DNA of 64,000 bases, from contig NZ_JARXYR010000002.1 in assembly GCF_029893635.1 (NCBI RefSeq), forward strand, positions 3,819,001 through 3,883,000, written 5' to 3'. The notes beneath the pieces are model-generated. The model worked only from the letters and a program-made list of their open reading frames with translations, was not told the DNA's origin and ran no database searches. This document shows, in pieces, positions 15,067 through 22,513 of the stretch. The translations under genes were made by a program, and so were the position numbers. Position 1 is the stretch's first letter; each line of letters opens with the position of its first letter. The DNA is from Variovorax sp. TBS-050B (GTDB lineage: Bacteria > Pseudomonadota > Gammaproteobacteria > Burkholderiales > Burkholderiaceae_C).

Positions 15067-16064
15067 ACGGCGGGACGTCGCGCCGCGGCGTCTGGCTGGC
15101 CTGGGCAGTGCAGGCACTGCTGGTGCTGGCGGTGGTGGCCGGCGCGGTCTGGGTGGTGCACCACGCGCTCGAGGTGCTGCGCGCCCGGGGCGTGCGCTCG
15201 GGCTTCGACTTTCTCACCGAGCCCGCGGGCTTCTCCATCAGCGAGGGCTGGCTCGATTTCGATGCGGGGCAGCCGTTCTGGCGCGCCTTCCTCGCGGGCC
15301 TGATCAACACCGTGCGCGCGGCCGTGCCCGCGGCCGTCTTCTCGGTGGTGCTGGGCACGCTGATCGGCATCGGCCGGCTCGCGCCGCACGTGCTGCTGCG
15401 CGGCATCTGCACCGCGTACGTCGAACTGCTGCGCAATGTGCCGCTGCTGGTGCAACTGCTGATGCTGGCCTTCGCCATCGCCAACCTGCTGCCCGATCCG
15501 ACCGAACCCGTGCGGCTGCTGCCCGGCGTGTGGCTCAGCAAGGGCGGTCTGAGCGTGCCGTGGCCGGTGGCGGGCGAGGGCGGCGGCGGGTGGCCCACGC
15601 ACCTGGAATGGCCCGAGCGCGGTGATTTCGGCGTCAGCGGCGGCGCCGCGCTGAGCCCCGAGTACGTGACCATCGTCGCCGGCCTCTCGCTGTACTCGGC
15701 CGCCTTCGTGGCCGAGATCGTGCGCGCGGGCATCCAGTCGGTGTCGCAGGGGCAGGTGCTCGCGGCGCAGGCGCTCGGCCTCGGGCCCGGGCAGCAGCTT
15801 CGCATCGTGGTGCTGCCGCAGGCGCTGCGCGTGATCGTGCCCTCGCTCACCAACCAGTTGCTGAGCCTGACCAAGAACTCGTCGCTCGCGGTCGCCGTGG
15901 GCTATCCGGAACTGGTGTCGGTGGCCAACACCACCATCGGCTCGAACGGGCGCGCCTTCGAATGCATCGCGATCATCATGGCGGTGTACCTGCTGCTGTC
16001 GCTCGTGATCTCCTTCGGCATGAACCGCTACAACGCGCGGGTGGCGCTGCGGGGCTGGCAATGA
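15063..16064 (+). CDS. Amino-acid ABC transporter permease 1 (AapQ-like)
   Basis: An inner-membrane permease of 333 residues with several hydrophobic helices. The first (WLAWAVQALLVLAVVAGAVWVV) is followed by a large extracytoplasmic part, as in AapQ/BztB. The cytoplasmic coupling loop EIVRAGIQSVSQGQVLAAQAL is the EAA motif that contacts the ATPase. It begins inside the stop of the binding-protein gene and overlaps the second permease by four bases, so all three are translated together. Confidence 0.92.
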   Translation: MNGGTSRRGVWLAWAVQALLVLAVVAGAVWVVHHALEVLRARGVRSGFDFLTEPAGFSISEGWLDFDAGQPFWRAFLAGLINTVRAAVPAAVFSVVLGTLIGIGRLAPHVLLRGICTAYVELLRNVPLLVQLLMLAFAIANLLPDPTEPVRLLPGVWLSKGGLSVPWPVAGEGGGGWPTHLEWPERGDFGVSGGAALSPEYVTIVAGLSLYSAAFVAEIVRAGIQSVSQGQVLAAQALGLGPGQQLRIVVLPQALRVIVPSLTNQLLSLTKNSSLAVAVGYPELVSVANTTIGSNGRAFECIAIIMAVYLLLSLVISFGMNRYNARVALRGWQ

Positions 16065-17134: not shown

Positions 17135-18796
17135 TCAGGCCGCCAGCGCCTTGTCGACGAGCTGCTGCGCCTCTTCGAGGATGCGGCCGAGGTGCTCCGG
17201 CCCCTTGAAGCTCTCGCCGTAGATCTTGTAGATGTCCTCGGTGCCCGAGGGCCGCGCGGCGAACCAGCCGTTCTCCGTGACCACCTTCACGCCGCCGATC
17301 GCCGCGCCGTTGCCGGGCGAATGGCTCAGCACCTGCTCGATCTTCTCGCCCGCGAGTTCGGTGGACTGCACCTGTGCAGGCGAAAGGCTCGACAGCTTCT
17401 TCTTCTGCGCGACGGTGGCCGCCGCGTCCACGCGGTTGGCCACCGGCCGGCCCAGCGCCTGCGCGAGCTCGGCAAAGCGCTCGCCCGGGTCGCGCCCGGT
17501 GCGCGCCGCGATCTCGGCCGAGAGCAGCGCCGGCACGATGCCGTCCTTGTCGGTGGTCCACACCGTGCCGTCGCGCCGCAGGAAGGTGGCGCCCGCGCTT
17601 TCCTCGCCGCCGAAGCCCAGCGAGGCATCGACCAGGCCGTCGACGAACCACTTGAAGCCGACCGGAACCTCGTACAGCTTGCGCCCCAGGCGCGCGGCCA
17701 CGCGGTCGATCATGCGGCTGCTGACCACCGTCTTGCCGACCGCGGCGGCCTCGGGCCACTGCGGCCGGTGCGTGAACAGGTAGTCGACCATCACCGCGAG
17801 GTAGTTGTTCGGCTGCATCAGCCCGGCGCTGCGCGTGACGACGCCGTGGCGGTCATGGTCGGTGTCGCAGGCGAAGGCGATGCCGAAGCGGTCCTTCAGG
17901 CCGATGAGCTGGTGCATCGCATCGGGCGACGAGGGGTCCATGCGGATGCGGCCGTCCCAGTCGAGCGACATGAAGCGGAAGGTCGGGTCGACCTCCTGGC
18001 TCAGCACCTCGAGCCGCTCGAGGCGGTAGCGTTCGGCGATCGCCGGCCAGTAGCGCACGCCGGCGCCGCCGAGCGGATCGACGCCGAGCGCGACCGGCAC
18101 GCCGCGGATCGCATCCATGTCGAGCACCTGCGCCAGGTCTTCGACGTAGGTGTTCAGGTAGTCGTGGCGGTGCGTGGTCGATGCGCGCAGCGCGCGCTCG
18201 AGCGGCATGCGCTTCACGCCTTGGAGGCCGTTGGCGAGAAAGCCGTTGGCCGCGGCCTCGACCGCCGAGGTGATGTCGGTGCCCGCCGGTCCGCCGTGCG
18301 GCGGGTTGTACTTGAAGCCGCCGCTCTCGGGCGGGTTGTGCGAGGGCGTGATCACGATGCCGTCGGCCAGGCCGCTGGTGCGTCCGCGGTTGTGGCAGAG
18401 GATGGCGTGCGACACGGCCGGGGTCGGCGTGTACTCGTCGTCCTTCGAGAGCATCAGCTCGACCCCGTTGGCCGCGAGCACTTCGACCGCGCTCGCGAAG
18501 GCCGGCGTGGACAGCGCATGGGTGTCGATGCCGAGGAACAGCGGCCCGTCGATGCCCTGCTGCCGCCGGTGGTCGGCGATGGCCTGGCTCATCGCGAGCA
18601 CATGCCACTCGTTGAACGCATTGTCGAAGGACGACCCACGGTGCCCCGAGGTGCCGAAGGCCACGCGCTGCGTGGCCACCGAGGGATCGGGCCGGCCCGT
18701 GAAATAGGCCGACACGAGCCGCGGCACGTTCACCAGCAGGTCGAGCGGCGCGCGCTGGCCGGGGAGGGCGGCGGAAGGCTTGGAGGCAGTGCTCAT
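17135..18796 (-). CDS. pgm: Phosphoglucomutase
   Basis: Pgm interconverts glucose 1-phosphate and glucose 6-phosphate, linking glycolysis to glycogen and surface polysaccharide synthesis. The 553 residues include the phosphoserine loop [11 protein letters not shown] (S152), the metal loop DTDHDRHG (D311, D313, D315), the sugar-binding region GGEESAGA, and the C-terminal phosphate-binding [15 protein letters not shown]. The length matches the Pgm (alpha-glucose-specific) family. The ATG at 18796 overlaps the stop of the upstream cyclase frame (ATGA), so the two genes were built as a coupled pair. Confidence 0.95.
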
Positions 18797-19843
18797 CGAT
18801 GGGATTCCTGTGTGGACGTGTTGCGGGAGGACTGCGGCAGGCCGCTGCGCGCACGCTTGACCGCGTACATGGCGGCATCGGCCAGGCGCAGCGCTTCTTC
18901 GGCGGTGCCGAGCGGATCGACGGCGACCGCGCCGACGCTCGCGCCACCGTAGTTCAGGCGGATCTGGCCGAGCTGGAATTCGCCGACCGTGGCCGGCGGC
19001 CAGGCGCTGGCCGAGCGCCTCGGCCGCGTCCAGCGCCTCGTGGCCGGCCGGCGCGGGGCCCGGTCCCACCACCACGAATTCGTCGCCGCCGAGCCGGGCC
19101 AGGAGGTCGCCGGCACGCAGCGTGCCTTCGAGCCGCCGGGCCATGGCGACGAGGAAGTCGTCGCCGGCCTCGTGGCCGTGCCGGTCGTTGATCTGCTTGA
19201 AGCCGTCGAGGTCGACGAAGGCGACCAGCACGCCGCGGCCATCGCGCTCGCTGCGCGCGAGCATGCGCCGGAGTTCGTCGAGAAAGGCGCGGCGGTTGGG
19301 CAGGCCGGTCAGTGCGTCGGTCGCGGCATAGGCGGCGAGTTCGGCATTGGCCTGGCGCAGGCGGTGGAGCAGTTGCTCGCGTTCGACCTGGTGCGCGATG
19401 AGGCGGGCGAACATGCCGAGCAGGTCGAAGGCCTGCGGCGGCAGCGGCCGGCTCTCGGCGCTGGCGGCGCAGAGCGTGCCGTAGAGGCCGCCGCTGTCGG
19501 TGCGCACCGGCGTGCTCACATAGGTCTGGATGCCGAGCGCGCGGGCGGCCTCGGAGTCGCCCCAGCATTCGGCCACGTTGTCGGTGTAGACGCGGCCCTC
19601 GTCGATCGCACGCTTGCAGAGCGTGTCGCCCCACGGCACCGCCAGCCCTTCGGGAATCTGCAATTGCCGCACGTTGCGTGCATACAGGATGTGCTGCAGG
19701 CCCTGCTCGACGTCGATCCGGGTGAGGTAGGTGGATTCGAGCCCGGTCACGGCCTCGAGCATCTCGAGCATCGGGCGGGTCAGGTCCTCGAGGGTCCTGG
19801 CCGAGGTGACAGAGGTCGAGAGTTGATTCAGCAGCGGATCCAT
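18793..19843 (-). pseudogene. GAF-GGDEF diguanylate cyclase, broken by a one-base frameshift
   Basis: The intact frame from 19843 encodes a GAF domain (residues ~10-165, with [18 protein letters not shown]) and most of a GGDEF domain ([16 protein letters not shown], then [14 protein letters not shown] with both the inhibitory RxxD site and the active site). After residue 283 the frame goes wrong; the true C-terminus ([20 protein letters not shown], then [14 protein letters not shown]) continues in another frame to a stop at 18793-18795. Removing one G from the GG at 18993-18994 restores a 349-residue cyclase ending exactly on the pgm ATG. As read, translation runs on in frame into pgm. It may be a real mutation or a base-calling error in a GC run. 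Confidence 0.85.
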
Positions 19844-19850
19844 GGCCCCG

Positions 19851-19856
19851 ATTCTG
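19851..19856 (-). promoter_or_regulatory. Candidate -10 of the cyclase gene
   Basis: CAGAAT on the minus strand ends seven bases before the cyclase ATG at 19843, again predicting an mRNA with almost no leader. Confidence 0.45.
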
Positions 19857-19906
19857 CCGCCCGGCCGCGGAACCCGGACCTCTGCTTCATTTTGTTGCGC
19901 GTGGGC

Positions 19907-22513
19907 TCAGGCCTCGAGCGCTTCCATGAGCTCGGTCTCGATCGCGAGCTGCGTGCGCTGGCCCTGCAGTTCCGGGCCGCTGATCAGGAAGGTGTCCTCC
20001 ACGCGCTCGCCGAGCGTGGTGATCTTCGCGAGCTGCAGGTTCAGGTGGTGCCGCGCCAGCACGCGCGCGACCGAATAGAGCAGCCCCGCGCGGTCGCTGG
20101 CCGAGATGTTGAGCAGCCAGCGCTGCGCCTTGTCGTCGGGCAGCAGGCTGATGCGCGGCTTGATCGGAAAGCTGCGCACGCGCCGCGAGACCCGTCCCAC
20201 GCTCGGCGCGGGCAGGGCCCCGGCTTCGGTGAGCGTGCGCGCGAGGCCGGTCTCGACCATGTTGATCAGGTCGCGGTAGTGGTCGGGCACGAAGGTGGTC
20301 ACGACCTGGAAGGTGTCGAGCGCGTAGCCGTTGGTCGTGGTGTGGACCTTCGCATCGAGGATGCTGAACGAGGCCTGGTCGAAATAGCCGCAGATGCGCG
20401 CGAACAGGTCGGCCTGGTCGGGCGTGTAGACCACCACCTGCAGGCCTTCGCCCACGGGCGAGAGGCGCGCCCGCACGATCGGCGGCGCCTTCGGGTCGAC
20501 CTGCACCTTGGGCGGCGGCACGAAGCGCGAGAGCTGCTTGGCGTGCCAGGCGATCTCGGCGGCGTCGTGGCGCATGAAGTAGCGCACGTCGAGCGTGTCC
20601 CACAGCGCCTTGTGCGCCTCGAAGGGCTGGGCGTGCAGCGCCAGCTGCACCAGCGCCTCGCGCTTGCGGGCTTCCACCTCGGCATCGGGGTCGGGCATGC
20701 GGCCGCCGAGCGCGCGCAGCGTGTAGCGGTAGAGGTCTTCGAGCAGCTTGCCCTTCCAGGCATTCCACACGCGCGGCGAGGTGCCGCGGATGTCCGCCAC
20801 CGTCAGCAGGTACAGCGCGGTGAGGTAGCGCTCGTTGCCCACGCGGCGCGCGAAGGCGCCGATCACCTCGGGGTCGCCGAGGTCCTGCTTCTGCGCCACC
20901 TGGCTCATCACCAGGTGCTCGGCCACCAGGAACTCGATCAGCTTCGCGTCCTCGCGGGCGATGCCGTGCTGCTTGCAGAAGCGCTGCACGTCGCGCGCGC
21001 CGAGCGTCGAATGGTCGCCGCCGCGGCCCTTGGCGATGTCGTGGAACAGCGCCGCGACGTAGAGGATCCACGGCTTGTCCCAGCCGGCCGCGAGCTGCGA
21101 GCAGAACGGGTATTCGTGCGCATGCTCGGCGATGAAGAAGCGCCGCACGTTGCGCAGCACCATCAGGATGTGCTGGTCGACCGTGTACACATGGAACAGG
21201 TCGTGCTGCATCTGCCCGACGATGCTGCGAAACACCCGCAGGTAGCGCCCGAGCACCGAGGTCTGGTTCATCAGCCGGAACGCATGCGTGATGCCGTAGG
21301 GCTGCTGCAGGATGCGCATGAAGGTCTGGTGGTTGACCGGGTCGTTGCGGAACCTGCTGTCCATCACGTGGCGCGCGTTGTAGAGCGCCCGCAGCGTGCG
21401 CGCCGAGAGGCCCTTCACGCCGATGGTCTTCTGGTAGAGAAGGAAGGTCTCGAGGATCGCGTGCGGCGTGTTCTCGTACAGGTCGTCGCTCGCGATCTCG
21501 ATCAGGCCGGCGCGTTCGTAGAAGCGCTCGTTGATCGGCGTGGGCTGCTCTTCCGACGGCTGCAGCCGCTCGGCGATGTTGAGCAGCAGGATCTGGTTGA
21601 GCTGCGACACCGCCTTGGCGGCCCAGTAGTAGCGCCGCATCAGCGCTTCGCTCGACTTGCGCTTCGATTCGCTCTCGTAGCCGAAGCTCGCGGCCACGGC
21701 GGTCTGCAGGTCGAACACCAGGCGGTCTTCGCGCCGGTTGGCAATGACGTGCAGCCGCGCGCGGATCAGCGAGAGCAGGGCTTCGTTGCGCTTGATCTGC
21801 TGCGCCTCGAAAGGCGTTGCCAGGCCGTTCCTCGCCAGGTCGTCCCAGCGGCTGCCGAAGCCCGCCGCGCGCGTCATCCAGAGGATGGTCTGCAGGTCGC
21901 GCAGGCCGCCCGGCGATTCCTTGCAGTTGGGCTCGAGCGCGTAGGGCGTGTTCTCGTATTTCTGATGCCGGTGCCGCATCTCCTGCGACTTGGCGACGAA
22001 GAAGGCCTGCGGGTCGATGGCGCGGGTGAAGCGGCTGCAGAAGGCGGCGAAGAGCTTCTTGTCGCCGGTGATCAGCCGGGCTTCGAGCAGCGAGGTCTGG
22101 ACGGTGACGTCCTTCTCGGCTTCGGCCAGGCATTCGTCCAGCGTGCGCACGCTGGAGCCGATCTCGAGGCCGGCGTCCCAGCAATGGCCGATGAAAGCCT
22201 CGATGCGTGCCGGGTCGAGCTCGCCGGCCTGGCCTTCGGGCGGCAGCAGCAGCAGCACGTCGACGTCGGAATACGGAAACAGCTCGCCGCGGCCGAAGCC
22301 GCCCACGGCCACCAGCGCCAGCGCATTGCCGAAGCCGGCTTCGGACCAGAGCGTGCACAGCGTCTGGTCGGCCAGCGCCGACAGCTGCCGCAGCACCGTG
22401 TGCACGCTGCGCGTGGGCGCGCGCGCGAAGCGCAGGGTGTCGAACAGCGCCAGCTTCTTCGCGCGGTATTGCTCGCGCAGCGAGGCGACGTCGATCTTGG
22501 CCGGTTCGATCAC
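19907..22513 (-). CDS. glnD: PII uridylyltransferase / uridylyl-removing enzyme
   Basis: GlnD senses glutamine and adds or removes UMP on PII proteins, setting nitrogen control. The 868 residues show all parts: the nucleotidyltransferase site [19 protein letters not shown] (71-89), the HD hydrolase block [15 protein letters not shown] near 475, and two C-terminal ACT domains (from about residue 690, the last with [20 protein letters not shown]). The start is GTG at 22513. It lies 37 bp after map on the same strand, the same map-glnD order found in many proteobacteria. Confidence 0.96.

Follow-up and report, generated by a model that had tools for sequence, protein, structure and literature searches.

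The diguanylate cyclase gene that abuts pgm in Variovorax sp. TBS-050B is, in our view, probably an orphan left behind by the loss of a cellulose operon, and the base that throws its C-terminus out of frame was probably introduced during assembly. The window referred to throughout is the whole stretch of 64,000 nucleotides that was analysed (G000:C2:3819001-3883000), which belongs to an assembly of two contigs and 5.5 Mb. The c-di-GMP that GGDEF proteins make activates the cellulose synthase BcsA by way of the PilZ domain of that enzyme; the glucose-1-phosphate needed for UDP-glucose comes from phosphoglucomutase. The arrangement of the locus is as follows.

17135-18796, minus strand: pgm, phosphoglucomutase, intact, 553 amino acids; TIGR01132 matches at 846.9 bits, above its equivalog cut-off of 778.
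18793-18993, minus strand: out-of-frame remainder of the GGDEF domain, 66 codons, with a TGA over the pgm start (ATGA), from the sequence and the homologue alignment.
18995-19843, minus strand: in-frame part of the GAF-GGDEF gene, residues 1-283, 84% identical to the homologue in the relative G091.
19025-19327, minus strand: first two thirds of the GGDEF domain (Pfam match, PF00990), residues 173-273, profile positions 1-102 of 161.
19076-19117, minus strand: RxxD (residues 243-246) and GGDEF (residues 252-256) motifs, read in translation.
19394-19801, minus strand: GAF domain (Pfam match, PF13185), residues 15-150.
17135-19843, minus strand: cyclase-pgm read-through frame as written, 902 amino acids, an open reading frame.
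19907-22513, minus strand: upstream neighbour, which we take to be glnD; it is conserved in relatives whether or not they have the cyclase.

As written, the ATG at 19843 opens a minus-strand frame of 902 codons (923 from stop to stop) that continues in frame through pgm to 17135. The cyclase leaves its own frame after residue 283 because of one net extra base, and its C-terminus is intact in the next frame, where the 66 codons at 18993-18796 are free of stops and the TGA at 18795-18793 overlaps the pgm ATG at 18796. Together the two pieces (283 + 66) give 349 residues for the frame-corrected cyclase. The RxxD and GGDEF motifs, the functional meaning of which we take from general knowledge, both lie in the in-frame part, but the GGDEF domain as written is incomplete, only the first 102 of its 161 profile positions being in frame. 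The original prediction had described the broken frame, the two motifs, the corrected ending on the ATGA and the 902-residue reading, and all of these are borne out by the reading frames and alignments. No promoter or terminator was found in a scan of positions 18700-20000.

A search of 101 genomes of the genus, in which weaker rows were excluded as other GGDEF proteins, returned near full-length homologues of the cyclase from 27 other genomes (33 rows, 57-84% identity). Six genomes (G002, G018, G020, G050, G056 and G080) each carry two copies. We fetched the surroundings of pgm from 20 relatives, as well as 20 stretches around the cyclase. In seven of the 20 relatives (G034, G070, G026, G022, G082, G024 and G004) glnD is followed directly by pgm and there is no cyclase; in the other 13, glnD is followed by the cyclase, and pgm lies farther on, between 2.9 kb (G038, G040) and 17.7 kb (G079) from the matched end of the cyclase. 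The order of the locus in relatives is map-glnD-cyclase-(PAS-GGDEF)-bcsD-bcsQ-bcsA-bcsB-bcsZ-bcsC-(GGDEF-EAL)-(HAD)-pgm; of the 13 relatives with the glnD-cyclase-pgm order, 12 have a HAD hydrolase gene ahead of pgm. The exception is G091, in which the 16.7 kb between the cyclase stop and pgm encode a PAS-GGDEF protein, BcsD, BcsQ, BcsA, BcsB, BcsZ, BcsC and a small protein, as well as a GGDEF-EAL protein on the opposite strand. The G091 BcsA scores above the equivalog cut-off and carries a PilZ domain. With bcsD, bcsQ, bcsA, bcsB, bcsZ and bcsC, this insert resembles a Type I bcs operon, which is defined by bcsD (PMC11470070); such an operon is missing from the window genome, where BcsB and BcsA were searched for. 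As separate observations on genomes of the genus, purL of G070 lies in two pieces, one with two stops (G070:C2:4672382-4676429), which is either a break or an assembly error, and a BcsA gene in G044 has one in-frame TAG (G044:C1:4196127-4198154).

In 12 of the 20 fetched cyclase stretches the cyclase lies directly upstream of bcs genes, and in ten of these glnD stands in front of it. The stretches from G085 and G059 are free of bcs genes and come from genomes without BcsB, and in G002, G080, G020, G050, G057 and G007 the cyclase copy that was fetched has no bcs genes nearby. A second cyclase copy, the less similar of the two, is found near bcsA in G002, G020 and G080. Across the genus BcsB was found in 36 of 101 genomes, namely in 23 of the 28 with an orthologue of the cyclase against 13 of the 73 without one (Fisher p = 2.9e-9, with kinship ignored). 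From its position and this co-occurrence we infer that the cyclase is a source of c-di-GMP for the bcs operon. The five genomes that have the cyclase and no BcsB are the window genome, G038, G040, G059 and G085. In the last four the bcs-free locus holds EAL and HAD genes and the cyclase is intact, so that loss of the operon does not by itself kill the cyclase; this suggests that the enzyme can be of use where no cellulose is made.

The cyclase shares a GGDEF domain with RxxD with the cyclases that are tied to cellulose elsewhere (e.g. AdrA and DgcQ), and its relatives head a bcs operon. It differs from those enzymes in having a GAF sensor, in scoring below every listed NCBIfam equivalog cut-off, in its out-of-frame C-terminus and in the absence of bcs. 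A search of the literature on Variovorax and betaproteobacterial cellulose operons and cyclases gave no title on this locus among the matches listed, and Variovorax is unmentioned in the main text of PMC4646962.

In the window genome pgm follows the cyclase at once and no bcs genes lie beside it. BcsB has no match anywhere in this genome, no BcsA match exceeds the cut-off (the best reaches 344 bits, compared with a cut-off of 699) and there is no close copy of the GGDEF-EAL neighbour of G091, the best identity being 35%. Two features mark the boundary with pgm.

18797-18832, minus strand: join zone; the match to the cyclase of G091 stops at 18833 and pgm starts at 18796.
18806-18809, minus strand: AGGA, possible ribosome-binding site of pgm from the sequence, 9 nt before the ATG.

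The cyclase can be aligned with that of G091 as far as 18833, two codons short of the G091 stop, and no farther. Over its first 48 nt pgm resembles the G091 gene (score 55, compared with 12-27 for 19 other relatives); the 45-nt pgm leader scores 17 against G091, within the maximum of 23 for shuffled sequences and so not significant alone. The end of the cyclase homology and the G091-like start of pgm place the join somewhere within 18832-18797.

The phylogenetic picture of the locus is mixed. In the tree built from Map, GlnD and Pgm the window genome falls nearer to the cyclase-free relatives, and among 76 genes with matches in both genomes compared, only 20 have G091 as the closer one, a count into which some distant paralogues enter. 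The cyclase tree, on the other hand, joins the window copy to G091 with a support of 100. The locus has probably passed from one lineage to another, or else has disappeared more than once. Thirteen genomes carry BcsB without this cyclase. There is some encouragement for the idea that the cyclase was inserted beside pgm alone and that bcs genes never lay between the two in this lineage, since the core genes are nearer to those of relatives in which glnD and pgm are directly adjacent. We consider this history rather improbable: the cyclase lacks its own stop, with its homology ending at the join, and the first codons of pgm are of the kind found in G091, in which pgm lies behind the bcs operon. 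Nor is there much to recommend a selected translational coupling, matching c-di-GMP to the supply of sugar phosphate, as a reading of the coupling that the original prediction called meaningful; we judge it very unlikely despite the exact ATGA overlap in the proper frame. The cyclase adjoins pgm in none of the 20 relatives with fetched neighbourhoods, and pgm was found beside the cyclase in none of 53 other loci (L010-L062, with flanks of 1.5 or 3 kb, some ended by the contig; two are distant paralogues and several come from genomes among the 20 relatives) and in none of 29 loci of the wider family (1.5 kb flanks). The pgm gene has its own AGGA, and the ATGA is part of its own Met-Ser start, which reads ATGAGC or ATGAGT in the relatives inspected and there overlaps an unrelated HAD hydrolase gene; in G085, for example, the HAD gene ends at 15501 and pgm starts at 15498, giving the same ATGA-type overlap. 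Any upstream frame in the register of the pgm start will end at the TGA of this ATGA, and the overlap is therefore weak evidence for coupling. The suggested link to polysaccharide survives indirectly, as the cyclase and pgm of relatives flank a cellulose operon, but the operon is missing here and a direct coupling is not supported. A second pgm-like gene in G043 (G043:C1:718833-719968) lies in three pieces and is probably a decayed copy.

Returning to the cyclase as an orphan of the operon, its coding sequence appears well preserved. All 33 homologue rows are free of stops, with 338-496 codons from stop to stop. We aligned 22 fetched homologue proteins of 337-355 amino acids with both pieces of the window gene. 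The out-of-frame piece of 66 codons aligns with the C-termini of all 22 intact homologues, and the G(A/P)SVG and AD.AM motifs that it shares with every one of them indicate more than a chance resemblance. After VDP, at about 18912-18913 on the minus strand, this piece has one residue fewer than all 22 intact homologues, a minor in-frame difference that is separate from the frame break. The two pieces retain 111 of the 113 residues that are invariant among the homologues, and the first piece compared with G091 gives dN 0.095 and dS 0.51 (dN/dS about 0.19). These values suggest that selection has acted on the reading frame up to the present or the very recent past. For residues 1-283 the changes inferred on the window branch number 12 compared with 5 for G091 (18 and 9 with near outgroups only), and the control genes give 68 and 61; in the out-of-frame piece the balance is 1 to 3. 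Neither the branch changes nor dN/dS give a clear sign of relaxed selection on the cyclase.

The break itself is confined to a few nucleotides.

18991-18996, minus strand: frame break, one base more than G091 by DNA alignment; none of 22 homologues is broken here.
18991-19049, no strand assigned: GC-rich inverted repeat, one edge of which falls at the frame break; arms 18991-19013 and 19027-19049, 83% complementary, 13 nt apart.

In the alignment with G091 the position of the extra base is ambiguous within GGCCGCCGGCC. A phase-variable switch, which had been offered as one explanation, or a programmed frameshift yielding both the 349-residue cyclase and the 902-residue cyclase-Pgm fusion would benefit from the fact that both frames are open across the site. 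The site has no tract of more than two identical bases, no slippery heptamer and no stop codon, there are no direct repeats in 18600-19100, and the RNA fold of 18940-19040 is no better than expected from composition (z -0.87). The alignment with relatives, a check that the original prediction had proposed, shows no shift at this place in any of the 22 intact homologues. Both phase variation and programmed shifting were accordingly rejected, and we give them almost no credence.

To place the extra base in context, proteins from G034 (600 kb) and G091 (220 kb) were compared with 1.26 Mb of the window genome. The 460 queries with orthologues at at least 70% identity correspond to 356 distinct stretches and 392 kb, and four frame breaks were found in them, all net +1. 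Besides the cyclase, the broken genes encode a RelA/SpoT-family GTP diphosphokinase (relA), the permease GsiC and homoserine dehydrogenase.

G000:C2, about 4218003 (locus L173): RelA/SpoT-family gene, extra A in the C-terminal ACT region compared with G034.
G000:C2, about 4298500 (locus L243): gsiC-type permease gene, broken in two by a single extra base compared with G034.
G000:C2, about 4549000 (locus L275): homoserine dehydrogenase gene, net +1 break near codon 51 compared with G091.

No -1 lesion was found in this census, and a stop was seen in one of 352 G034 queries, at its extreme end, and in none of 109 G091 queries. By sign alone the chance that four of four breaks are +1 is 1 in 16, or 1 in 8 for any single sign. 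When G034 was used as the target, 385 genes (397 kb) gave one candidate, which is the same relA site viewed from the other side, so G034 has no frame break of its own in these genes; its four stops all lie near match ends. With G091 as the target, one candidate was found in 77 genes and none in 62. In the part of the window genome examined, single-base insertions thus occur in conserved coding DNA at a rate of about one per 100 kb (4 in 392 kb). In an earlier and smaller census of 81 genes the cyclase was the sole broken gene, a result that would point to a true mutation in a gene no longer needed; the three further +1 breaks of the wider census overturned it.

Isolated insertions are typical of some long-read chemistries. 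That they recur across this assembly, in conserved genes unrelated to one another, makes residual base-calling error likely, and the extra base in the cyclase is, on this sequence evidence, most likely an insertion error remaining in the assembly, as the original prediction had allowed among its options. The pattern is like the gene-fragmenting indel errors described for long-read assemblies in PMC12007338, which likewise are isolated single-base insertions in otherwise conserved genes, although the platform used for the window genome may differ. The main competitor is that the base is real, and that, after loss of the cellulose operon, a one-base insertion has only just disabled the orphan cyclase. 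This is unlikely, though we do take it seriously: the bcs operon is gone, the cyclase is present in a single copy (the next match has an E value of 2e-24), residues 1-283 show the slight excess of window-branch changes given above, and the GC-rich inverted repeat could promote slippage. The repeat could favour a read error or a real slip alike, however, and the excess of changes is reversed in the out-of-frame piece. Similar breaks in relA, gsiC and the homoserine dehydrogenase gene, none of which has an evident reason to decay, the lack of -1 lesions and internal nonsense, and the intact cyclase of the bcs-free relatives all argue against a real lesion. Were the base real, translation behind map and glnD might also produce the 902-residue fusion of GAF, partial GGDEF and phosphoglucomutase, in which Pgm would gain a sensory N-terminus; we regard this outcome as highly improbable.

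The most consistent interpretation, and in our view the probable one, is therefore that of an orphaned cyclase left as the scar of operon loss, with an added assembly error. In many related Variovorax this GAF-GGDEF cyclase heads the bcs operon, usually between glnD and pgm; it would supply c-di-GMP to the PilZ-bearing synthase BcsA, and pgm would supply glucose-1-phosphate. By comparison with these relatives, the stretch from the last codons of the cyclase to just before pgm, the whole bcs operon included, is gone from the window lineage, and we infer a deletion rather than a separate assembly of the locus. With the operon missing, the cyclase abuts pgm. The loss would have taken the cyclase's own stop, so that its proper frame now ends at the TGA inside the ATGAGC of pgm and the ATGA overlap would be a by-product of the join. 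If the base near 18994 is a residual assembly insertion, the cell probably holds an intact orphan cyclase of 349 amino acids; if it is real, the cell has no working copy of this cyclase, and translation of pgm probably continues from the gene's own start codon. Given the rate of insertions, the other broken genes of this assembly need checking before they are called pseudogenes. For Variovorax, the analysis would link a GAF-GGDEF cyclase of unassigned role to the making of cellulose, and the locus suggests that what looks like functional coupling between two genes can be a scar left where an operon was lost.
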